Source: Rhizophagus irregularis
Lineage: Eukaryota; Glomeromycota; Glomeromycetes; Glomerales; Glomeraceae
Direction of reading: 5' to 3'
NCBI RefSeq assembly: GCF_026210795.1
Contig: NC_089443.1
Span: 3,100,001 to 3,164,000, forward strand
DNA: 64,000 nt
Numbering within the stretch: position 1 is the first letter of the stretch; every line of letters begins with the position of its first letter. A program made the position numbers and the translations under genes. The notes beneath the pieces were generated by a model. It made no database searches and had not been told where the DNA came from. It saw nothing but the letters and a program-made list of their open reading frames with translations. Positions 547 through 64,000 of this stretch are shown here, piece by piece.

Positions 547-1140
547 ACTTATGAATTTATTATTCATTATATTTATTCGAAAAATTCTATAGTGGCTTGT
601 GTGCGGCTTTTGTTAATAGAACATCGCACAATGTGATCAACATTTTAATTACTTATTTTAATCTTAATGTTACTTTTTAGAACAAAATTGTATTAGTAAC
701 ATGTATAATTATTTTTTTTTATCACGTGAAAATATTTAAACCGCAATTTATTTATTATATTTATTATTACAATTACAATTATTACTAATGATTACAATTA
801 TTAAAATTAATATTTTTTTTCTTATTTTAAGAAATCCAACTAAGTCCAAATACTTTTAACTTAAACGATAAAGAGTATAATATTTAGCGCTCCGGACTCT
901 TAACGGTTTCCGTTTCCTAGTATTGTATTAGAAATTGTAAAACCTGGAAGAGCCTAAAGACCTAAAAAAATGTACTAAAAAAAAAACAAGGGGGAAGGAA
1001 GAAATGAAAAAAATAATATAAACATATGGTGAAACTATAAATATTAGTCAGCCCAATCAAATTTATCACATGATAGGGTGAATCTATATATTAAAAAACA
1101 CTGCAATCACGTGGGCGTTATGTTTAGATTAACCATATAA
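547..1140. other. AT-rich intergenic DNA without recognisable gene
   Basis: This stretch is AT-rich with several homopolymer runs and short Trp/Cys-poor frames. I see no coding signature, RNA gene or inverted repeat in it. Confidence 0.6.
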
Positions 1141-1144
1141 CACA

Positions 1145-2235
1145 GGTCGAACAGATGTCATTGTCGCAAAATTTGCCTGGAATTTTTCTGGCAAATTGAG
1201 AATTATCCTGGTAAATTGGGGTAAATTGTGTTACAATTTTGGGATAATGGAGGACTTACAATTTGGCAAATTTTGTCAAAATGGCGGAATTCCTACAGAA
1301 TTCCTAATTCAAATGTTGAGAAATTTTTCAGTAAATTATCATTAATTGTGGGAAATTTTAGGTAAATTTTTAGTAATTTTATGTAAATTGTAGTGAATTT
1401 AGTCAAATTTTTAGTAATTTTATGTAAACGTAATGTGAATTTAGTCAAATTTTTAGTAATTTTATGTAAACGTAATGCAAATTGTGGTGAATTTATCAAA
1501 TTTTTAGTAATTTTATGTAAACGTATTGTAAATTGTGTAAATTTTAGGCAAATTTTTAGTAATTTTATGTAAACGTAATGCAAATTGTAGTGAATTTATC
1601 AAATTTTTAGTAATTTTACGTAAACGTAATGCAAATTGTGGTGAATTTAGTCAAATTTTTAGTAATTTTATGTAAACGTATTGTAAATTGGAGTGTTTTA
1701 AAAGGCAAATTTTTAGTAATTTTATGTAAACGTAATGCAAATTGTAGTGAATTTAGTCAAATTTTTAGTAATTTTATGTAAACGTAATGCAAATTGTGGT
1801 GAATTTAGTCAAATTTTTAGTAATTTTATGCAAAAGTAATGCAAATTGTGGTAAATTGTAGTGTATTTTTAGTAATGTTATATAAATTGTTGAAAATTTA
1901 GGTGAATTTTTCAGCAATGTTGTGCAAACGTAATACAAATTGTGGAAAATTGTGGTAAATTTTGCATTTTTTCGGTAAATATTAGCTAAACTTTTGATAA
2001 TTTAGTGAAATTTAGGATAATTTTGGACAATTGAGTGAAAAATGTTTTACTGATTTTGTACAATTGAGTGTAAACAGTATAAACGCAACATTTTCGGAGA
2101 CAATTTAGTGAAATTTTGCAATAATTTCGGACAATTGAGTGAAATTTTGCAATAATTTCGGACAATTGAGTTGAAATTTAGTAATAATTTTAAACAATTT
2201 AGTGCAAATACCATGACAATTTAAAACACTGGTTT
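1145..2235. repeat. AT-rich minisatellite, core unit about 52 bp
   Basis: About nine copies of a unit containing 'AATTTTTAGTAATTTTATG' followed by 'TAAACGTAATGCAAATTG' lie between 1330 and 1870. Unit length varies around 43-62 bp because of small indels. On either side the pattern decays into shorter phrases such as 'GACAATTGAGTGAAATTTTG'. Open frames on the minus strand here are repeat artefacts. No splice-like boundaries or hairpins were seen, which distinguishes this block from the next array. Confidence 0.8.
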
Positions 2236-2324
2236 AATAATTTTACATAATTTATTACAATATTATTTATTAACAAATGCACAATTATTATTTAACGATG
2301 AGAATCTATATTAATCTATATTCA

Positions 2325-4378
2325 TCAGATATCCAATGATCCATGGGTAATCCGCACATCTAATTCATTCATGTATCTCCGATGCCAAAGTAGAAGCTGG
2401 TGAAAACCTACAAAAAAGAAAGTAAAGAAACGATAGTTAACGTTTCTTAAAAAAAAATTAATAAAAATTAAGTTTCACAACCAATGTTGCGAAACTCACC
2501 GGTTCATTTTGATTTCCATTATCCAAATGTCCGGAACCTACAAAAAGTAAAAAAAAACGTTAGGTAATGTTTCTTTTAAAAAAAAAGAACAAAAATTAAG
2601 TTTCGCAATGTAACATTGCAAAACTTACCGGTCGTTTCATTCATTCTAACATCCGGAACCTACAAAAAGTAAAAAAGAAACGTTAATATAAACGTTTCTT
2701 TTAAAAAAAGAGTAAAAATTAAGTTTCGCAACACAATGTTGCGAAACTTACCGGTCGTTTCATTCATTCTAACATCCGGAACCTACAAAAGTAAAAAAAA
2801 CGTTAGGTAATGTTTCTTTTAAAAAAAAGAACAAAAATTAAGTTTCGCAATGTAACATTGCGAAACTTACCGGTAGTTTCATTCATTCTAACATCCGGAA
2901 CCTACAAAAAGTAAAAAAGAAACGTTAATATAAACGTTTCTTTTAAAAAAAAAGAGTAAAAATTAAGTTTCGCAACACAATGTTGCGAAACTTACCGGTC
3001 GTTTCATTCATTCTAACATCCGGAACCTACAAAAAGTAAAAAAAAACGTTAGGTAATGTTTCTTTTAAAAAAAAAGAACAAAAATTAAGTTTCGCAATGT
3101 AACATTGCGAAACTTACCGGTCGTTTCATTCATTCTAACATCCGGAACCTACAAAAGTAAAAAAGAACGTTAGTTAACGCTTTTAATAAAAAAACAAAAA
3201 TTAAGTTTCACAATGTAACATTGTTGGAAACTTACCGGTCGTTTGTCATTCATTCTAACGTCCGGAACCTACAAAGTAAAAAGAAACGTTAACATAAACG
3301 TTTCTTTTAAAAAAAAAAGAGTAAAAATTAAGTTTCGCAACACAATGTTGCGAAACTTACCGGTTCGTTTCGAAGTTCATTATCCAAACGTCCGGAATCT
3401 ACAAAAATTAAAAGAAAGAAACGTTTAGTATCGTTTCTTTAAAAAAAATAATTAAAAAAATAAGTTTCGCAATACAATATTGCGAAACTCACCGGTTCGT
3501 TTCGATTTCTATTATCCAAACGTCCGGAACCTACAAAAAGTAAAAGAAACGTACGTTAGTATCGTTTCTTTAAAAAAAAAACATAATTAAAATTAAGTTT
3601 CGCAACAATTGTTGCGAAACTTACCGGTTCGTTTCGAGTTTCAAACGTCCGAACCTACAAAAAAAGAAAGAAACGTTAGTTAACGTTTCTTTAATAAAAA
3701 AAATCAATAAATTAAGTTTCGCAACGATTCGTGTGAAAACTCACCGGCTCGTTTCATCCAAACGTCCGGAACCTACAAAAAGAAGGAAAGAAACGTTAGT
3801 TAACGTTTCTTTTAATAAAAAAAAAAATTTAACAAAAAAAGAAAATATTACCTTTCTTCCAAAGTCCGGGTCGTAATTTCGTCCGGCGTTCCTACAAAAA
3901 GAAGAAAGGAAACGTTAGAAACGTTTCCTAAAAGAAATTAAAAAAAGTAAGTTTCGAACACGAAACTTACCATTTCACTTTCCGAAGTTGAAGACCTACA
4001 CAAAAGAAAAATAGGAAACGTTAGAAACGTTTCCTTACAAAAAAGAATTAAAAAAAATTTTTTTAAAAAAGTTTCGAAGCGAACGCTTCGAAACTTACCA
4101 TTTTCGTTTCCTCGTTTCCTAAGTCAAAAATACCGAAAGACCTAAAAAAAAAAATAAAGGATCGTTAAAAACGATCCTTATAAAAGCAAAAAAAAAAAAT
4201 TTATTTTTAAAGTTTCGAAGCGAAACGCTTCGAAACTTACCATAATTTCAGTAGTCAAAACATCGAAAATCCTACAAAAAAGAAAGAAAGGAAACGTTAG
4301 AAACGTTTCCTTACAACAAAGAATTAAAAAAAAATTTAAATTTAAAAAGTTTCGAAGCGTTTCGCTTCGAAACTTACC
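2325..4378 (-). repeat. Tandem micro-exon/hairpin-intron-like array (16 introns, 15 micro-exons)
   Basis: Read on the minus strand, units of about 80-145 bp (about 122 bp in the most regular part) repeat. Each has a short conserved block flanked by a U-rich ...TAG acceptor and a GTRAG donor. Micro-exons from 5' to 3': 4241-4271, 4099-4141, 3971-3995, 3852-3891, 3745-3772, 3625-3654, 3493-3530, 3361-3398, 3236-3268, 3118-3148, 2996-3026, 2871-2901, 2752-2782, 2629-2659, 2500-2537. A terminal exon runs 2407-2325. Donors are 12 GTAAG, 3 GTGAG and 1 GTAAT. Acceptors are 15 GTAG and 1 TTAG. Typical micro-exons start GTTCCGGA and read VPDVRMNETT in one frame. The terminal exon has a 26-codon frame (RRYMNELDVRITHGSLDI, then TGA). 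Nearly every putative intron has two inverted repeats, one on the donor and one before the acceptor. No single frame passes through all exons, so coding is unproven. It could be an alternatively spliced gene, a noncoding transcript or a hairpin satellite. Confidence 0.7.
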
Positions 4379-4385
4379 TTTGTTT

Positions 4386-4662
4386 TTCTGAAAGACGGTT
4401 CCGGGAAGGGGAAAGGAATGGGAAGGAGTGGGAGAAAAGGGAAGGGAAGGGCGGAGGGCGAGGGAAGGGGAGGGAAGAGAGAGGAAAGAGGGAAAGAGGA
4501 AGGATGAGAGAGAGAAGGGGAAGGGCGAGAGAAAAAAGAGGGAAGGGGAAGGTGGGGAAAGAAAGAAAGAGGGAAAGGTAAGGTCAGAAAAAGAAAAGAG
4601 GAAGGCGAAAGAAAGAAAGGGAGAAGGGTAAGGGCGAAAGAAAGAAGAGGTAAAGGCCGTGA
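4386..4662. repeat. Purine-rich tract (pyrimidine-rich on the minus strand)
   Basis: About 280 bp on the plus strand consist almost only of A and G, mostly GGGAAGG and GAAAG phrases. It lies immediately upstream (minus sense) of the first donor of the micro-exon array. On the minus strand it ends in TCTTTCAG, so it could act as a very long polypyrimidine tract before a 10-nt exon. Long open frames on both strands here are low-complexity artefacts. It could also form triplex DNA. Confidence 0.75.
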
Positions 4663-4667
4663 GAAAA

Positions 4668-4769
4668 AAAATTAAGCTTTTGCTAAAAAAGCTTAATTTT
4701 TTTTTTTTCGTTATACCGCAGCTGAAGCTGCGGTAATTATTAAGTAATATCACGTGATGCACGTGATAT
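4668..4769. other. Three successive palindromes
   Basis: Three inverted repeats follow one another: AAATTAAGCTTTT with its complement (4668-4700), ACCGCAGC/GCTGCGGT with a 4-nt loop (4715-4734), and ATATCACGTG/CACGTGATAT with a 3-nt loop (4747-4769). The last contains two CACGTG boxes. On the minus strand they lie upstream of the pyrimidine tract and the micro-exon array, so they may be promoter-proximal. That role is inference only. Confidence 0.6.
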
Positions 4770-5180
4770 ATAATTTTATATAAATAGGGGCTTTCCCCCC
4801 GCCCCGGAATTTTTTTTTTATTTTAATAATTTTAAATAGATGTATATATATGCTTATATATATATATATATATATCTATTAACTAATACTTTACGAAAAG
4901 CCCCTCCTCTGTAAACAGGTAGAGGCCATAAAGTACCTATAGGGGAGAGCCATTGCTGCTCCCTCCGCCTGTTTATAGTGATAAAAAGAGGGAGTCTTCA
5001 GTAGTAAGGTTTAGTACTAAATTAAACATCACAACACATCGTGTTGATACATTGTTTATATTAACAATGTGATTTAATGTTAAATAATTCATTTAGAATA
5101 TAAATATTATAAATTTAATAATGTTTGTAATTTACAAATAAATAAAAATAAAAATTAACAATTTTAATGTAATTAAGTGT
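4770..5180. other. Intergenic block with GC-rich inverted segments
   Basis: A GC-richer piece (4785-4805) holds AGGGGCTTT. Its complement AAAGCCCCT recurs near 4897, with a (TA)n microsatellite at about 4854-4876 between them. From 4900 to 5000 there are further small inverted repeats (CCTCT/AGAGG, CCTGTTTA/TAAACAGG). It has no tRNA or rRNA signature. The rest is plain AT-rich DNA. Confidence 0.4.
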
Positions 5181-5184
5181 AATG

Positions 5185-6180
5185 CTACATTATCCAGTGT
5201 AATTGTAGTATTTTTTTTGTGTTTTTTAGCGCAATTCCACGTTTTTTAGTGCAATTCCGCATTTTTTAGTGCAATTCCACATTTTCTAGCATAATGTTAC
5301 ATTTTCCAGTATAACGCAAAATTTTCTAAAAAATATAATAATTGTGGTACTTTTTAGTGTAATGCTACATTGTCTAGTGTAATTGTGGTATTTTTTAGTG
5401 CAATGCCGCATAATTTAGTATAGTGTTACATTTTTTAGTATAATTTAATTTAATGTGGAATTTTCCAAAAAATGTGATAATTGCGACGCTTTTTAGTGTA
5501 ACTTTGGTGAAATGCTACATTTTCCAGTGTAATGCCATATTATTGAGCATTTTCAAAAAAAAAATGTAACATTTTAACATTCTGACAAAAGTGAAACATT
5601 TGACCAAAAAAACATAAAATTTGCTGAAAATATGCAACATTTCGACAAAAAAATATAGAATTTTCATAAAAAAATGCACCATTTGCTAGGAAATCGGAAT
5701 ACTTTGACAAAATTTGATTTTAATTGACAATGTTATAACAATTTTATGAAATGTTGTTACAATGATATCACATTGGAGATAAAATGTGGCATTTTCATAA
5801 AAATGCACCATTTGCAAGAAAATTGGAACATTTGACAAAAAAAAAGCAAAATTTAATTTTGATTGACAATGTTATAACAATTTTATGAAATGTTATTACA
5901 TTTGACAAAATGTGGAATTTTCATAAAAATGCACCATTTGGCAAGCAAAATTGGAACGCATTTGACAAAAAAAACGCAAAATTTGATTTAATTCGACAAT
6001 GTTATAACAATGTTACGAAACGTTACATTTGAGATATAATGTAGCATTTTCCCAAATTTTCATAAAATTTATAAAATTTGCTAAATCGGACAATGTTGTA
6101 ACAATGCTATTCCAAAAAATTGCTCAGCGTAATGCAGCATTTTCTACAATTTCCCACCATTTTCCAGGAAAATGGGGAAT
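5185..6180. repeat. Degenerate AT-rich tandem repeats, two unit types
   Basis: From about 5185 to 5560 a 20-25-bp phrase, TTTTTAGTGCAATTCCGCA and variants, repeats. From about 5670 to 6050 roughly three copies of a unit near 125 bp follow. It contains GACAATGTTATAACAATTTT and TTTTCATAAAAATGCACCAT. Copies are diverged, so this is an old array. No gene was found. Confidence 0.7.
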
Positions 6181-6189
6181 TTGCATTTT

Positions 6190-6490
6190 TTGAATTTTGG
6201 ACAATGGTGCTCCTTCGACCTGTGTAAATAAGTCATTTGAATTGTGTAACCTACTCCTATTCGTCGCCAATGTTACACAAGAACAAAAAAGGAAATTTTA
6301 TTTCTGGCAAAAAACTGAAATTTTGAATTACGCAGGATTCCATAAAAGGAAATTGTCAGTTACACAAATTTCCAAAAAAGGAAATTTTATCTTCTGTTAC
6401 TTTTCAGAGAAATTAAAAAAATTGTGTTGCTCAAATTTCCAAAAAAGGAAATTCTTTGCAGATCTTTTAATTCTGGCCGGAATTACATAT
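6190..6490. repeat. Dispersed-motif block with TTTCCAAAAAAGGAAA palindromes
   Basis: The short palindrome TTTCCAAAAAAGGAAATT occurs twice (near 6370 and 6430), with related pieces near 6290 and 6345. The first follows TTACACAA. Similar pieces recur at about 57470 and twice near 60750-60830. The open frame through this block (6197-6493) looks like a by-product of the repeats rather than a gene. Confidence 0.45.
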
Positions 6491-6891: not shown

Positions 6892-8379
6892 CCCTATGAA
6901 CTTAAAATATACTTAAAATTTTATTAAAATATACTTAAAATAAGTATCAATTTTAATTCGTGATATATTTATAATATACTTAAAATATGCCTAAAATACT
7001 CCTAAAATATACTTTTAATATACTTGTTTTTACTCAAGTACTTAAATTATACTTAAAGTATACTTAAACTAAAATTTAAGTATAATATAAGTGTATCTTT
7101 TACATGTTTAAAATATTCTTAAAATGTACTTAAAATTCAATTTAAGTATATTTTAAGTATATAAAAAATACATTTATATTGTACTTAAATTTTAATTTAA
7201 GCATATTTTAAGAATATTTTAAACATGTAAAAAATACACTTATATTGTATTTAAATTTTAGTTTAAGTATACTTTAAGTATAATTTAAGTATTTGGGCAA
7301 AAAACAAATACAGTCAACTCTCTTTATAGTCACACATTTGGGACAGTCCATATTTGGTGATTATACTATATAAAAAATTTCTTATATTAGTATATCATAA
7401 TTCTGGCCAAAAATTAACATAATTTTGGCTAAAATTATACTCAAAACTTTATTGTATCGTAACTCCGCCAATATTAATCGTAGAGAGAAGATCATACCGC
7501 CATTTGATTTGTCTTGATGAGACGGTTCCAATGGTATAAAATACATCGAAATCCAATCACTAGATTAATTTCCAAAATTAAAAAAATATTAATGGTTTTT
7601 GTGTAATAACTCTGCCAATATTGATCCTAGAGAGACGATCTTACTACCATTCGATTCGTCTTGATGTGACGAATCTAATGGTATAAAATACATCAAATCC
7701 AATCACTAGATCAATTTCCAAAATTAAAAAAATATTAAATGGTTTTTAAGTAGTAACTCCGTCAATATTGATCACAGAGAGATAAGCTTACCACCATTTG
7801 ATTCGTCTTGATGAGGCGATTCCAACGAGCTATTAATCGTCTTTTTACAATCAATTGGTACTGAGAAATTTAGCAAAATGTTAAATGGCGCAGTAAACGT
7901 AAATCAAGAAATATAATAATGCTGATGCTTACCATTTTGTTGAATAACTCATCAGCTAGTTATCGAAAAGGATAAAACTACTACCATTCGATTCGTCTCA
8001 GTGAGACGATTCTAACAAGCTATAATACATCTTTGTACGATTATTAGATGCCAAGTTATTTAATATATTCTTTATATAACTGTAATTATAAACGGTTCTT
8101 TTTAATATAAGATTTTTGAGGATAGGTGTGATAGTGACTATAGATAGATTGTGACTATATAGAATTGAACATTCAACTGGTGTGACTATATAGTAGAATG
8201 TGACTATAACAGGAGTGACTATAAAGGGAGTTGACTGTACATTAAAAATATATTTTAAAAGTATTTTCAGCATATTTTAAGTATATTATAAGTATATCAT
8301 GAATTAAAATTGATACTTATTTTAAGTATATTTTAATAAAATTTTAAGTATATTTTAAGTACAAAAACTTTTCATAGGG
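6892..8379. mobile_element. Foldback element with long terminal inverted repeats, host of a nested MITE
   Basis: The left arm (6892-7030, starting CCCTATGAA) matches the reverse complement of the right arm (about 8245-8379, ending TTCATAGGG) over about 130 bp. Between them, 7033-7300 is itself a large inverted repeat. CAT flanks both ends (6889-6891 and 8380-8382), a possible 3-bp target duplication. The middle is split by the MITE at 7311-8237. Without that insertion the element is about 560 bp and almost wholly self-complementary. There is no coding capacity. Confidence 0.7.
7311..8237. mobile_element. TA-target MITE, family 1, copy 1 (pogo/mariner type)
   Basis: It begins CAGTCAACTCTCTTTATAG and ends with the inverted counterpart ...CTATAAAGGGAGTTGACTG, flanked by TA on both sides. 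Inside, a unit of about 130 bp with CCATTCGATTCGTC...GACGATTCTAATGG hairpins is repeated three to four times. Open frames on the minus strand are not protein-like. The ends resemble those of pogo/Tigger-type non-autonomous elements. The source transposase is not identified. Confidence 0.85.
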
Positions 8380-8709: not shown

Positions 8710-11246
8710 ATGAACCATAGTAAATTTTCATTTATTTTTAAAGGTTCTAGCATTATTGATAAAATCTTCTCAGATGAAGACAAATATAAAGCTTTAGCGG
8801 AACTTGCAGGTCCACTCATTTTACATGATGAATATTTGCTTGCACAACGGCTTGGAAATATCAAAGTCGCGTTGGCCTTTTGGATAAGAAGAATACAAAC
8901 GTCTTTGACAAACGATGACCAGGAAGCCTTATACACGCGTTTATTATCAAAACAACAAGACTTACTAATTAGGAATCAGGATTCTATATTATACAATGAT
9001 AATCTTAACATAAATTTACCCCCTGATTGTACACACAATCTAGCCAGTGATAAGGCAGCCACGACGTGTACATCTGATAGCTCCATGGATACACAAAGTT
9101 GTACTACATCACTTGCTAAGCCGCCTCAGTCACGTGAAAATAGCAATTACGCAATACCAACGAACAATAAGAAGAGAAAAACTAAGACTAAAGATTCACA
9201 TTTTTCTGCTACGTCGGACGTGAATAAAGTTCAACAACTGCATAAGGATATTGTACAAAATGACTTTTGCAGGGAAAACCAGATTGAAACGGAGACTGAG
9301 TCAATAAAGAATTTTGAACATATCGATAACAACACTCCAATGGAGGATGTTCTTCTCCTTCCAGCCCTCGATAGTAATCCGCAACAATCTGAAATATTGG
9401 TAGATTTCTCACCGGATAGGAACGATAACACATCGTTGCCAATACAACCATCCACAACAATGAATACGAGCCACGAATCGGATACTATATGGAGAGAATT
9501 ATGGTTGCTCAATCAAGATGTCATAATAAACGATGCTGACGATAATAGCGATAAAAATATCACCAACAATAATGTAAAAGGAACAGTTATGGATTAGGAT
9601 TCCTCCCGATCCATTTCATCATTACAAGAATTCGAATCAGCTATTAAAGCGGCTCCAAACACTACTGACACGAACACTGATGATGCGATGGATCATAAAT
9701 GGTATCCCCCATCAAAAATCAAAAAACCATCAAAAATCCTTTCAGACATCAAAAAACACTCGCCACGCAACAATGTATCTATCCATGCATATACAGAAGA
9801 GAAAGTTGCCACGTATGATGCGTTCATTCCAATTAACGACATTGATCATTACAACATGGTCGAGGATAAGATCTCTTTTATAGAACTCAATGTACGAAAC
9901 ATGTCTGACTACGCTGGCATCGAGTATAACGCAAAGGATAAACAGATAATTATAAAAAACTATGTTCTTGGAGGAATGAGAAGAATGGTTCGCGTTTTCA
10001 ACCACTACTTCAAGACTAGCAATTTCAAGATGACCGAAAAGAAGTACTACACGTTACATGGTCAACGAATCTCAAGCAGAGAATTCAAGATCCTAGAAGT
10101 CCCCAATAATACAGACAAAAATGCTATCGAAAGCAGCATTCGAAGCCTGCTACATGGCTGCCCATTTTTTATAACAGATAAGAGTTATAAATATAGATCC
10201 GAGACCACAATGACTGTTTACTTTACGGTAAAGGATGAATATACCAGGCAATTATTGAAAAACGTCTGGTCCATTGATATAGAAAACTATATATATCGTC
10301 TTGGCCCGCACATTTTAAAACTAGTGATTTTGATGATAGAAAGAAACATAGAGGAGAATTCATTGGCTTTAGTGACGAACATACAGCAGCAAAAGCGATG
10401 GAGATGACATCTCCATTTAATCTGAAGAGTGCCTTCAAACAAAGCCCGGACAAGATAATCGTCGAATTCCAAAATGAGGCAGATCTCTTTAATGCTTGTG
10501 AGAAACGATACCACTTCAATGATTTTAGTGTTAAAGGTTACCCAATTGGCTATAATTGGCCACAAAGAGATCAAGCCATCAGTAAGGTTGCTTGCCAAAA
10601 CCTAGGGGTTTAGACAAGATGGCGTTTCGCCGAAAAGTGAAATTCTGCCGAAACTATATTAAAGTTATATTAAAAAACTGGCAAAACTTTGGAGAAAGGC
10701 GAAACTGCCGAAACTTATTATAAATGCCGAAACTGCCAAAACTCTGCCGAAACTATAATAAATCTATAGTAAAATTTTGACGAAACTAATCGTAAGATTT
10801 TGAAGAGGTTTAGACAAGCAACCTTAGCCATCAGCAAACTTAAAAAAGCACAAAACGTTAATATTCATCATCAGACATGTAATCAATCAACATCAGATGT
10901 TGCCAATGTGCACAACACTAACACGACCCGTTGCTCCAGCGACAACGATAAAATGAATAACGTGGCCAACAAACAACACAAGTCCATAGAATATAAGGGA
11001 AATAATTCTCAACGGAAAATATACAGGAGAGATACTGGCGCAAATAAATCTCGCAGAAACCAGAAAGAGTTTAGTCATTTACCATCGTGCGCTAGTAGCT
11101 CTAATAGTATACCTCTTGGAGTTAATTCAAGGAGGAGATTAAATAATAACAAGAACAACTCGACTAGTACGAGTAAGACACCCGTCGACACATCAAGTAC
11201 GCATAGTAATACACCCATCAATATCAATCGCCAAGAGGATTGGGAT

Positions 11247-11267
<21 letters not shown>
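8710..11267 (+). pseudogene. LINE ORF1 protein (nucleic-acid-binding), broken
   Basis: The frame opens at ATG 8710 (MNHSKFSFIFKGSSI) and runs to a TAG at 9595-9597. The same frame then stays open through MDHKWYPPSKI to about 10315. There a frameshift moves to a frame reading HRGEFIGFSDEHTAAKAM, which resembles the RNP-like strand and helix of an RRM. A further one-base slip lies in GGGG at about 10605. A 188-bp insertion flanked by a 12-bp repeat follows (10619-10806). The C-terminal part (RFRQATLAISKLKKAQ to DWDEVMSLC) is Ser/Thr/Asn-rich and basic. Length would be about 780 residues. Its role in LINEs is RNA binding and chaperoning in the retrotransposition particle. Domain boundaries are estimates. 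Confidence 0.7.
10619..10806. mobile_element. 188-bp insertion inside LINE ORF1 with 12-bp target duplication
   Basis: GGTTTAGACAAG stands at 10607-10618 and again at 10807-10818, exactly 200 bp apart. The insert is rich in GCCGAAACT and CGAAACT phrases and does not match the protein-coding texture on either side. Removing it and one G rejoins the ORF1 frame (NLG then FRQATL). The phrases resemble the subterminal repeats of the hAT-type elements at 21712 and 38257. However, the ends are not inverted repeats and the duplication is longer than 8 bp. The class is unknown. Confidence 0.7.
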
Positions 11268-17105
<5,838 letters not shown>

Positions 17106-18324: not shown

Positions 18325-18984
18325 TACAGTTCAACTCTCTTTATAGTTACACATTTGGAACAGTCCATATTTGGTGATTATAAAGAGATGTGACTATATA
18401 AAAATTTTCTTATATTAGTATATCATAATTCTGGCCAAAAATTAACATAATTTTAATCAGAATTATACTTAAAACTTTATTGTATCGTAACTCTGCCAAT
18501 ATTAATTGTAGAGAAATGATCTTACCGCCATTCAATTCATCTTGATGAGACAGTTCTAATGGTAAAAAATATATTGAAATCCAATCACTAGATTAATTTC
18601 TGAAATTAAAAAAATATTAATGGTTTTTGTGTAATAACTCTGCCAATATTAATTCTAAAAAAATGATCTTACTACCATTTGATTCGTCTTGATGAGACAA
18701 ATCTAATGGTATAAGATACATCAAAATCCAATTACTAGATCAATTTCCAAAATTAAAAAATATTAAATGGTTTTTAAGTAGTAACTCCATCAATATTGAT
18801 CTCAATTTGTCTTGATGAAGTGATTCCAATGAGCTATTAATCGTCTTTTTACAATCACTAGGTACTGAGAAATTTAGCAAAATGTTAAATAGCACAGTAA
18901 ATGTAAATCAAGAAATATGATAATGCCGATGTTTAACATTTTGTTGAATAACTCATCAGCCAGTAATTGTAAAAGGATAAAACT

Positions 18985-19432: not shown

Positions 19433-20393
19433 CAGTCAACTCTCTTTATAGTCACACATTTGGGACAGTCCATATTTGGTAATTATAAAAAGATGTGACT
19501 ATATAAAAAATTTCTTATATTTGTATATCATAATTCCGGCCAAAAATTAACATAATTTTAGCCAGAATTATACTTAAAACTTTATTGTATCGTAACTTCG
19601 CTAATATTAATCGTAGAGAGATGATCTTACTGCCATTCGATTCGTCTTGATGAGACGGTTCTAATGGTATAAAATACATAGAAATCCAATCACTAGATTA
19701 ATTTCCGAAATTAAAAAAATATTAATAGTTTTTGTGTAATAACTCTGCCAATATTGATCCTAGAGAGACAATCTTACTACCATTCGATTCGTCTTGATGA
19801 GACGAATCTAATGGTATAAGATACATCGAAATCCAATCACTAGATCAATTTCCGAAATTAAAAAATATTAAATGGTTTTTAAGTAATAACTCCGCCAATA
19901 TTGATCACAGAGAGATGAGCTTACCACCATTCGATTCGTCTCGATGAGGCGATTCCAACGAGCTATAAATCGTCTTTTTACAATCACTAGGTACCGAGAA
20001 ATCTAGCAAAATGTTAAATGGCGCAGTAAACGTAAATCAAGAAATATTATAATGCCGATGTTTAACATTTTGTTGAATAACTCGTCAGCCAGTGATTGGA
20101 AAAGGATAAAACTACCACCATTCGATTCGTCTCAGTGAGACGATTCTAACAAGCTATGATACATCTTTGTACGATTATTAGATGCCAAGTTATTTAATAT
20201 ATTCTTTATATAACTGTGATTATAAACGGTTCTTTTTAATATAAGATTTTTGAGGATAGGTGTGATAGTGACTATAGATAGATCGTGACTATATAGGATA
20301 GATTTTAATAATAAAGTGTTTTGAACATTCAACTGGTGTGACTATATAGTAGAATGTGACTATAACGGGAGTGACTATAGAGGGAGTTGACTG
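19433..20393. mobile_element. TA-target MITE, family 1, copy 3 (inner)
   Basis: This is a complete 961-bp element, CAGTCAACTCTC to GAGTTGACTG, inserted at a TA inside copy 2. The host sequence ...TCTTTTTAATA resumes after it as TTAGATTTTTGAGG. It is closer to copy 1 than its host is, so it is the younger insertion. It has the internal CCATTCGATTCGTC hairpin units and no coding capacity. Confidence 0.88.
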
Positions 20394-49897: not shown

Positions 49898-51829
49898 GAA
49901 AAACTCTTTCCCGAATACATTTTTTACGAAAATTTCTGCGTAATAATTTTTTTTAAAAAATAATCCTCTTTATTAAATTTTATTACATAAATATAAAAAT
50001 GTCTATGGATAAGAGCCGAACACCAAACGAAGCAGCTTTAGACTTTGTTTCCAAGTTTAACGAAATTTATTTTCAGTCTTTTACACACCACTTAAGTTCT
50101 TTTGTACAGGACAGTTTCCTCAAGGACTTATTTGAAAAGAACCCCTCAGTTCCTAAGGATAAAGCCCGGATACTGATAGAAAGGTTTGGAGAAACAGCCA
50201 ACCCTGCGAACTTCACTTCACAAGCTCAGGCTACGAACATACAACCCACCACCCTTTTGCTAATATTTTCTATAGCGCTATATGCTGCGTCCAGGTCTTG
50301 GGATAATTTTTCTGCCCAATTCTATTGCAATTTTGGTGATACGGGTGATGATGATGATGACAATGATGATGAATCTCAAAATACTGAAGATTATCTGATG
50401 GATGAGTCACCTTTGCCAATGCTTGCTGAAGATGATCTTATACGTCAAGGATTTCAAAATCCACCAAATCCAGTACCTATCAAGCTTCCATCAATGCCCG
50501 ATATAGTAACGCCCCTGTTGATCAAACTGTAATACCCGAAAATTCCCAGAAGAAAGATAAACAAAAGGCGCGTATTACAGATGATAAACAAGTCGCGAAC
50601 CAATCAACAAAGGCAATACCTGATGTGAAAACATCAGCCAAAAATTTCCATAAGGGGAAGAAATCATCCGAACCGGAGGCTACACAGATACTGACAGGAT
50701 ACGAAGCTGTCAGAGAGGAGCTAGAGCGAATCCGAGACATTATAGTTTACGATATCCCGTATACCTGGGACCTGCAGAAAATACTAGCAGAGTTAAAACT
50801 TTGGGGGAACGCTATTAAATGTTCCGTTAAACGGCAACATAAGTATCAGACTCTTTGAGTCAAGATAGCACTTTCCTCCTTTGCCCTTCCCCAGTTTAAT
50901 AAATATTGGACGACAGACCTGGGAGGTATACCCGTTAGATGGTTCCTGCAAGTTGGACTTTACGAGAAAGAAAACAACGTGAAAAGTTTCAAGCCGTTAT
51001 TCATGACATTCCGGAGGATATGACGATGGCTACCTTGTGGACGGACCGTAAACCATGTGAATTTTTAATGAAGTGCGGTGCTAGCTCATTTAAAATTATA
51101 CAAACAAGCAATGGAAGGAGGAAACTTGTAGCCTATTTCGAGAATTGGGAGACCACACTAAGGGCCTTAGATACGCCACAGTATTTCGTACCAGATGGTA
51201 AGGAGTTGAAATGGTGTCGACACTCCATTCCTACCTTGAAGAAAGCACAAACAAAACCAAAGGCTAAAAATACACCGAATACGAAAAAGTCAGGTAAGTC
51301 TGACAAAAATTTGGAAAGTAATCAGCCTAAGAAGAAGGATAAACCTACATCCTCGAAGAAAGTCCCTAAAAATAATAACCAGGAGGAGAAACACCCGAAA
51401 ACTCAGAAGAAGGCAAAGAAGTCCTCAAAGAAAAAGGGTGGTAATAAAGATAACAAGGCGGTTTTAGCAGAAATTTTAACTTTATTACAGAAACTAGTTT
51501 AGCCTACGCTTTAATTAGCGGTTTTACGAATTTCAGAATTGTATTATTTTTTAGGATAGAATAGGTTTATGTGTTTGCACCACAATTTCTTGGAAAGGGG
51601 ACTTGTCCTCTCCACTTTTTTTTTTATTTTATTTTTCCCAGTGTGTTTGCCTGGACCTTTATCAGACGTGGTAGTGGTACAGGTCTTTTTTTTTTCAAGA
51701 AGTAAGGGTTGGCTTCTGGCTCCTCTGGAAATCGATGGTAGGATAAATTTGGGTTGTATTACTTCGGAATCATACCCTTTGTTGTATCCCCTGCCGGCTT
51801 CACATAAAATAAATAAATAAATAAATAAA
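49898..51829 (+). mobile_element. RRM-protein retroelement, copy A, with 19-bp target duplication
   Basis: TGCTTCTTTTATACAGATA (49879-49897) is repeated with one mismatch at 51830-51848. The element begins near AACTCTTTCCCGAATACAT and ends in a (TAAA)n tail. The body encodes one ORF1-like protein in broken frames, and I see no reverse transcriptase. Tail and target duplication show target-primed insertion by an enzyme supplied in trans, so it is probably a non-autonomous LINE derivative. Confidence 0.85.
49999..51502 (+). pseudogene. ORF1-like RRM protein of retroelement copy A
   Basis: ATG 49999 starts MSMDKSRTPNEAALDFVSKF. The first segment (about 135 residues, helical, FVQDSFLKDLFEKNP and ATNIQPTTLLLIFSIAL) ends in an acidic linker (GDTGDDDDDNDDE). 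A frameshift at about 50515 cuts it (TAA at 50530). In the next frame DIIVYDIPYTWDLQKILAEL and IKCSVKRQHKYQTL form an RRM-like unit, then a TGA at about 50857. After a further slip at 50943 a second RRM-like unit follows (VIHDIPEDMTMATLWTDRK, FKIIQTSNGRRKLVAYFENW). The Lys-rich tail (KKKDKPTSSKKVPKNNN) ends EILTLLQKLV. LINE ORF1 proteins with RRM folds bind their own RNA. Three lesions inactivate this copy. Confidence 0.78.
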
Positions 51830-62867: not shown

Positions 62868-64000
62868 AAAAACTCTTTCTCGAATACATTTTTTACGAAA
62901 ATTTCTGCGTAATAATTTTTTTTAAAAAAACATTTCCCTTTATTAAATTTTATTACAAATATTTAAAAATGTCTATGGATAAGGGTAGAACACCTAACGG
63001 AGCAGCTATAGACTTTGTTTCTGAGTTTCAAGATACTTTTTTTGAAACAATATCACAACACTTAGATACCTTTATACAGGACGGTTTCCTTAAAGACCTA
63101 TATGAAAAAAGCCTACTACACCTGTGGATAAAGCCCAGATGTTAATAGATAGGTTTGGCGAGTCAGCCAACCCTCAGAAATTTATAGAACAGGCCCGTTC
63201 TCTGAACATACAACCGACCACCCTTTCGCTCATTTTTTCTATAGCCCTTTCCGTAGTGTCCAGGTCGTGGGATAATTTTACCACTCACTTCTACATGGAA
63301 TTTGGAGATATGGGTGATGATGAGGTTGAACCTGATTTTTTCGATGAGTCAGAAGATGATGAACGGAATGAAGCTGAATTAGGCTCTCGGCTGAGCGAAT
63401 TAGGAGTACAAACACCAAATCCAGTACTTGAAACGCCTCCAATACTGCCCGATGTGGAAATGACTATTGCTGATCAAACTGTGACACCTGAAACTTCCCG
63501 GAAGAAAGATAAACAAAAAGCGCGTGCTATAGTTGATAAACAAGTCAAGAACCAATCAACAACGGCAAAACCTGATGCTAAAACATCAGCCAAAAATTCC
63601 CAAAAGAATAAGAAATCACCTGATAATGAAGTTACTCAAATACTGACAGGATACGAAGCTGTCGGAGATGAGCAGGAGCGAATCCGAGACATAATAGTTT
63701 ACGATATCCCGTATACCTGGGACTTGCAGAAGATATTAGCAGAGTTAAACTTTTGGGGAACACTATCAAGTGTTCGGTTAAACGCCAACACAAGTATCAG
63801 ACTCTTCGAGTCAAGATAGCACTTTTCTCCTTCTCCCTTCCCCAGTTCAACAAATATTGGATGACAGACCTGGGAGGTATACCTGTGAGATGGTTCCCTG
63901 CAAGTTGGACTTTACGAGAAAGAAAACCACGTGAAAAGTTCCAAGCCATCATTCATGACATTCCGGAGGATATGACGATGGCTACCTTGTGGATGGACCG
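62868..64000 (+). mobile_element. RRM-protein retroelement, copy C, cut by window end
   Basis: It starts AACTCTTTCTCGAATACAT right after the target duplication of copy B. It differs from A and B at many sites, especially in the acidic linker, and lacks two frameshifts that A and B share. Its 3' tail lies outside the window. Confidence 0.8.
62970..64000 (+). pseudogene. ORF1-like RRM protein of retroelement copy C (partial)
   Basis: ATG 62970 reads MSMDKGRTPNGAAIDFVSEF. A one-base loss near 63112 (EKSLLHL) interrupts it. The next frame is open from 63124 (VDKAQMLIDRFGESANPQKF) through IVYDIPYTWDLQKILAEL. A further indel near 63770 shifts the first RRM-like unit. The part after it keeps GIPVRWFPASWTLRERK in one frame, where A and B have lost a C. 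The linker is longer and more acidic than in A (EVEPDFFDESEDDERNEAEL). Confidence 0.75.

Follow-up and report, generated by a model that had tools for sequence, protein, structure and literature searches.

CACTA/Plavaka transposons carry terminal inverted repeats that typically begin with CAC, and their target site duplications are 2–3 bp long. Non-coding multi-intron snoRNA host genes contain many short introns between uninformative exons. According to PMC11075540, Plavaka elements (CACTA/EnSpm superfamily) are prevalent in Rhizophagus irregularis DAOM197198. PMC8469720 describes fungal introner-like elements and sister stwintrons as repeated spliceosomal introns that occur in families, have stable predicted structure, reside in host genes, and possess intron-long symmetry. 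The SP7-like effectors of R. irregularis, as described in PMC11333574, are encoded by genes with tandem repeats; the repeats form part of the protein, which has a signal peptide, and the first repeat is preceded by a conserved intron.

We analysed a stretch of 64,000 nucleotides (the window, C15:3100001-3164000) from the 146.7-Mb, 32-contig genome of R. irregularis, which contains a tandem array of intron-like blocks and micro-exons. This array is almost certainly the interior of a CACTA/Plavaka-type element. The elements of the array family have CAC-type inverted ends, 3-bp target duplications, and subterminal repeats, and their ends are common to one partner element bearing tnp2 (PF02992), whereas in their interior an array of micro-exons and hairpinned introns takes the place of transposase genes. 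No description of a micro-exon array as transposon cargo was found in the open-licence papers searched. The array elements share repeated introns and stable predicted structure with the introner-like elements, but stand apart in having up to 19 consecutive introns within a transposon and, in place of intron-long symmetry, a pair of distinct local hairpins. Like snoRNA host genes, the array has many short introns between uninformative exons; unlike them, it has no snoRNA match in Rfam. A search of window positions 1000–6400 at E ≤1 gave 12 matches; none reached its gathering score, on which a known structured RNA was rejected, and none was to a snoRNA family, which leaves a snoRNA host gene unsupported. 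The array resembles the SP7-like genes in being a tandem repeat of the same fungus, but it keeps no reading frame.

A 401-bp piece used as the query matched at least 270 places in the genome at E ≤0.001 (40 of 240 first-look candidates were scored), and 40 loci were fetched for the family comparison. In an all-against-all comparison, similarity started and stopped sharply in most of these loci, and the element termini were inverted repeats beginning with CACAGGTCGAA. We found 28 end pairs and left out three with a spurious inner left end (the second rows of L012 and L046, and L042), which gave 25 elements; the other 15 loci had one or no recognised end within the fetched sequence. A 3-bp target duplication was present in 21 of the 24 elements with both ends and enough flank, the exceptions being a 4-bp repeat in L036 and no 3-bp match in L020 and L032. 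Shuffled flanks gave a mean of 2.2 matches over the 28 end-pair rows. Ends with at most 2 mismatches occurred 81 (right) and 76 (left) times genome-wide, and the reversed controls gave 0. The array is thus the cargo of a mobile element in dozens of copies, not an isolated gene, which the first-pass annotation had no means of seeing. The parts of the copy in the window are as follows.

1141..6224, minus strand: whole DNA transposon copy of 5,084 bp with the array as cargo (sharp similarity ends, inverted ends, target duplication)
6200..6224 (C15:3106200-3106224), minus strand: left terminal inverted repeat CACAGGTCGAAGGAGCACCATTGTC, 1 mismatch to the family pattern
1141..1165 (C15:3101141-3101165), minus strand: right terminal inverted repeat GACAATGACATCTGTTCGACCTGTG, 0 mismatches to the family pattern
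6225..6227, no strand: target site duplication TTA, left copy (flank comparison)
1138..1140, no strand: target site duplication TTA, right copy (flank comparison)
5650..6224, no strand: left end with subterminal tandem repeats, 84% shared with the partner L049 (alignment); the repeats extend inward to 5222
1141..1963, no strand: right end with subterminal tandem repeats, 86% shared with L049 (alignment)

Among the 25 array elements, no open stretch exceeded 214 codons, and the longest was of low-complexity make-up; direct inspection of the open frames of the window copy showed no transposase-like frame. L049, the sole partner examined, is a longer stretch of 8,871 bases (8.9 kb) between ends of the same type. 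A fragment of tnp2 transposase lies within it (PF02992, E 3.4e-8, scoring above the curated cut-off), and the frame next to this fragment gave 300 protein matches; among the 120 matches listed, many had PF02992, and the named sources include R. irregularis and Diversispora. The best outer alignments of L049 with eight array elements covered approximately 0.44–0.69 kb at 83–93% identity at the left end and 0.5–0.8 kb at 84–89% at the right end, and the inner repeats aligned in several registers. The middle of L049 (approximately 1.0–7.6 kb) gave no alignment with any of the 25 array elements. Further end pairs 8–9 kb apart are present in the genome-wide end listings. Since the tnp2 transposase sits in L049 with the same ends, the array element in the window is probably non-autonomous.

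On the minus strand from 4377 to 2408, 16 intron-like blocks are arranged around 15 internal micro-exons, and putative transcription signals lie on both sides of the array.

4872..5011, minus strand: conserved block with TATAAA (4977-4972), putative core promoter (conserved; promoter role suggested)
4390..4660, minus strand: C/T-rich leader, putative first exon (seen in the sequence; exon role suggested)
2408..4377, minus strand: micro-exon array of 16 intron-like blocks and 15 internal micro-exons (sequence, folds)
2250..2407, minus strand: putative terminal exon with AATAAA (2271-2266) in a presumed poly(A) role, far end provisional

The donors of the window introns were GTAAG (12), GTGAG (3), and GTAAT (1), in agreement with the first-pass annotation, which had counted 15 GTRAG and one GTAAT. 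It had likewise reported TAG intron ends, which we located in 16 of 16 introns, and intervening blocks of 25–43 nt, which we measured in all 15 micro-exons. Its repeat unit of about 80 to 145 bp was wrong, the donor-to-donor distance being 107–142 bp. The introns were 79–106 nt long, and the least similar pair shared 61% identity over the alignment. The units in the window are duplicates, and the 16 agreements are therefore not 16 independent events. The 140-bp TATAAA block was present in 37 of the 40 loci, in 34 of them at 462–719 bp upstream of the first array intron, and is followed by the C/T-rich leader; its predicted fold had a z of −1.98, with 10 of 200 shuffles equally good. The start of the putative terminal exon was found again in some other subfamilies. 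By eye, several other subfamilies (L026–L048) have a purine-rich stretch 3′ of the array, before the terminal exon, with frames rich in K, R, E, and G. The make-up of this stretch is complementary to that of the C/T-rich leader, which would make long-range pairing possible.

To describe the introns of the family, we took profile hits from the 40 loci (532 at E ≤0.01), kept those below 0.001 with a fitting length, and counted 430 introns at ≥30 bits. The donors were GTAAG (329), GTGAG (77), GTAAT (11), and others (13), and the acceptors were TAG (414) and others (16), in a count that sought GT and AG near the expected place and is biased towards them. A branch-like motif was present in 371 of the 430 introns (CTAAC in 270, TTAAC in 70, other accepted forms in 31) and absent from 59, and its A lay mostly 21–28 nt before the AG (5th to 95th percentile of the introns with a motif). 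The other strand of the same stretch gave CTAAC in 0, TTAAC in 126, TTAAT in 61, CTAAT in 6, and none in 237 introns, i.e., weak branch-like forms in 193 of 430. The signals of a U2-type intron (GT donor, branch-like site, T-rich tract, AG, and their spacing) were thus found at the sequence level. Our baseline of ordinary R. irregularis introns is one alpha-tubulin intron, which is too few; clean baseline introns were also sought in the transposase gene of L049, where there was no candidate. The lengths of 373 internal exons fell into classes 1, 2, and 0 mod 3 in 154, 141, and 78 cases, respectively, and exon lengths in the array family ignore the reading frame.

Most of the window introns were predicted to form two hairpins. 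In the first, predicted in 15 of the 16 introns (missing in intron 5), the donor region base-pairs with a near copy of itself immediately downstream; the second encloses the branch site and was predicted in 14 (missing in introns 11 and 15). Folding five of the 16 introns after removal of a few bases from their 3′ ends gave z values of −3.5 to −8.7 against dinucleotide shuffles. The consensus fold of all 16 had 19 pairs, 9 of which showed at least one change on both sides, and compensatory changes were seen in the donor hairpin. In random samples of 80 from the 40 loci, the mean z was −4.6 for the first 40 nt of the intron, −2.9 for the last 48 nt, and −0.5 for the exons, and values below −1 were obtained for 91%, 91%, and 31% of the samples, respectively. 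We obtained 58 distinct strings from 100 listed donor hairpins; the search pattern had dictated the outer arms of these hairpins. In the 58 strings, 173 of 195 inner cells pair, compared with 2000 shuffles that averaged 124 paired cells and never exceeded 145; as some of the strings are related, this excess is not a probability. The flanks of the donor-type hairpins are asymmetric: of 297 such hairpins in the 40 loci, 276 had GT on the side of the donor and 11 had AC on the opposite side. A wobble test for structure at the RNA level was mixed (G-T vs A-C, 104 vs 65 in the donor stem and 71 vs 87 in the branch stem) and is therefore not used as support. The non-Watson-Crick cells of the donor stem in the 40 loci were mostly CG to TG or CA changes at intron positions 9–10, as expected from methylated CpG.

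The explanation that we favour, with moderate confidence and from sequence evidence, is a transposon-borne, spliced, essentially non-coding RNA unit whose splice sites are held in hairpins. That the array is transcribed and spliced appears likely, at a strength well short of certainty. The interior of the element would have its own TATA promoter and a C/T-rich leader and would be transcribed along the minus strand of the window; the product would be a long, essentially non-coding RNA with many short introns removable by the ordinary spliceosome. Local hairpins would bury the donor and the branch site, and splicing would therefore be expected to proceed slowly or only under certain conditions, so that retained and spliced forms coexist; we infer that the hairpins may regulate splicing. 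The size of the array would change by unequal exchange, and new copies would be spread by the transposase of partners such as L049. The array might mimic a gene to the RNA-silencing system of the host or hold spliceosomal parts, although any benefit to the element is speculation.

The main rival to such a spliced unit is a neutral satellite, in which a real exon-intron unit was amplified in a transposon, the splice motifs are relics, and the palindromes were kept by hairpin-templated repair or gene conversion. We consider it unlikely but worth serious attention: the units are tandem and homogenised, the copies are young, and CpG-type changes dominate the stem mismatches. The first-pass annotation had taken the retention of every splice-like boundary as unexpected of a neutral satellite. 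In this family the copies are young and belong to one element, and the kept signals there therefore prove little; this part of the argument is weaker evidence of function than supposed, and arrays outside the family weigh more.

A genome scan for the exact donor hairpin pattern (GTAAGTTTCG, 5–16 bases, CGAAACTT) gave 566 hits (0 in the reversed control). The same hairpin without the GT requirement gave 839 hits (control, 5); some hairpins are counted twice in the 566, and at most two thirds of the 839 therefore have GTAAG, i.e., at least one third lack an adjacent GTAAG. AACGTT hairpins with CT before the second arm gave 1130 hits (control, 30), and all AACGTT hairpins in the genome gave 3507 (control, 286). 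The abundance of AACGTT hairpins without the CT fits the neutral satellite. Satellite-like AACGTTGCGAAACGTT-type palindromes without CT before the second arm, many of them approximately 79 or 154 bp apart, were observed at G000 C1:2817731-2820984, and these palindrome arrays may not be intron arrays.

The 41 clusters formed by the first 100 listed hits of the 566 comprised 11 inside paired family ends, 3 near one end, and 27 outside, where "outside" may include worn copies, as ends with more than 2 mismatches were not sought. We hand-picked five outside samples of 701 bp each from the listed GTAAG hits on contigs C1 and C2, each the sole exact hit of its cluster. By eye, all five were divergent micro-exon arrays of the same plan, and a chain finder recovered chains of 2–5 introns from them. 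Three more arrays of unlike sequence and like plan occur in the flanks of fetched loci.

L030, oriented 1-2000 (C7:5229001-5231000): extra array
L023, oriented 5640-6480: extra array
L047, oriented 5640-6001: extra array

One of these three flank arrays stands before a truncated copy of the window element. Among 25 chain-finder introns from the eight divergent arrays, the branch motif was on the sense strand in 21 and on the other strand in 3. The chain finder demands GT and AG, and these introns are therefore no evidence for either. The 25 include one 150-nt block across two units in the L023 flank, where the finder failed, and the first L054 intron (143 nt), which may be wrong. Two of the sampled arrays were dispersed: the L050 query had four copies including itself, on four contigs, at 97–100% over 490–541 of 541 bases, and the L052 query matched 20 other places at 76–91% over at least two thirds of 701 bases. 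We estimate that the genome contains hundreds of arrays.

These divergent arrays speak against the neutral satellite, since donor, branch-like motif, spacing, and AG co-occur in them (GT and AG were demanded, the rest was not). So do the retention of strand-asymmetric features and the folding contrast between structured introns and sampled exons that are on average unstructured (mean z −0.5). In a second reading, transposition proteins would bind the palindromes at the DNA level, the palindromes would continue the CACTA subterminal repeats inwards, and the splice signals would be incidental. Many palindromes do contain CGAAAC/GTTTCG, and subterminal repeats occupy both element ends. We regard this reading as very improbable, given that L049 has the same ends and an interior without alignment to the array elements, that 27 of the 41 hit clusters lie outside detected family ends, and that donor and branch site are strand-asymmetric. 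Introner-like elements that each inserted on its own and piled up in the transposon seem very unlikely. Their likeness to the array lies in the repeated introns with stable predicted structure that PMC8469720 describes for fungi, but all five sampled outside hits were arrays and none was a single intron in a coding gene, and the window introns have two short local hairpins, not one intron-long inverted repeat.

We examined the coding potential of the array for a protein-coding repeat gene, secreted or effector-like, in which micro-exons would be chosen by alternative splicing. Full in silico splicing gave a longest open stretch of 64.5 residues (median of 40 loci), compared with 55.8 for shuffled bases. 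The first donor is immediately preceded by an ATG in 29 of the 40 loci, which favours a coding gene, but the window copy has AAG in its place (4378-4389). The conceptual splice product of L010 matched 15 deposited proteins, 14 under NCBI R. irregularis names and one in UniRef from the same species. A first tracing of these proteins, which allowed array splice sites only, found a path for 0 of 15. A second tracing, which allowed every GT or GC[AG]AG and every AG, placed 4 of 15 exactly on the 40 loci, where other paths are also possible.

P0004, traced on L023: 8 introns, 7 identical to array introns
P0008 (OCT59_027914), traced on L024: 14 introns, 11 identical to array introns
P0009, traced on L015: 10 introns, 7 identical to array introns
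P0012, traced on L011: 11 introns, 7 identical to array introns

Of the other 11 introns in the four paths, 5 skip exons and 6 rely on splice sites that are not in the array set. The models differ in the exons skipped, and 5 of the 15 proteins contain, by eye, a piece of intron. P0008 belongs to an annotation of this R. irregularis assembly. According to PMC10234402, Illumina RNA reads went into building the gene models and Nanopore RNA reads into refining them. The four traced models skip exons or use odd donors, apparently holding the frame, and may therefore be ab initio predictions. These models indicate that gene finders recognise the array introns, although recognition does not prove that these introns are spliced, and the skipped exons point to the deposited proteins being artefacts of keeping the frame. 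An effector or other coding repeat was rejected on frame and stops despite the 15 protein matches. An SP7-like or other repeat effector was likewise rejected, as there is no long in-frame repeat protein, exon lengths are off-frame, and the open stretch is close to shuffled. With four proteins traced exactly through 8–14 introns each on one side, and the off-frame exons, near-shuffled open stretches, and disagreeing models on the other, we judge the protein-coding gene to be improbable.

The first-pass annotation, which had offered an exon-intron module, an effector-type repeat gene, or a new kind of non-coding locus, is partly supported as a whole. The exon-intron and non-coding readings both gain from the branch-like motifs at a set distance, the covarying donor hairpins, the many copies, the arrays of like plan, and the gene models on the same introns; the exon lengths and the open stretch after full splicing leave the effector reading unsupported. 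A broader and more tentative proposal, which we hold possible but doubtful, is that R. irregularis harbours a class of RNA units not described before, represented by several mobile families with hundreds of micro-exon arrays between them. In this class, donor and branch site would lie in conserved hairpins, and the units would be carried as transposon cargo and kept because slow splicing or splicing on a signal protects or serves the element.

If the array is spliced, it represents transposon cargo of little but introns in a fungus for which PMC11075540 reports 40 Argonaute-like genes. It would then be a test case for splicing as a shield of mobile elements from RNA silencing, and would show how structured donor and branch sites may be and yet still be spliced. 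If it is not spliced, the array consists of striking palindromic repeats that imitate introns and mislead gene finders. The array elements might account for part of the unclassified repeats of the genome, and they suggest that, in some cases, transposon RNA has been deposited under the label of a hypothetical protein.

No additional donor hairpins of the array type turned up when the remainder of the window was scanned. At 8710-17105, open frames resemble, by eye, a non-LTR retrotransposon (endonuclease, reverse transcriptase, and RNase H), and this putative retrotransposon is flanked by related 147-bp tandem repeats at 7460-7825, 18488-18787, and 19593-19952. Two look-alike open frames at 49999-50532 and 63124-63819 share, by eye, an NIQPTTL..LIFSIAL motif and are perhaps copies of one mobile gene.
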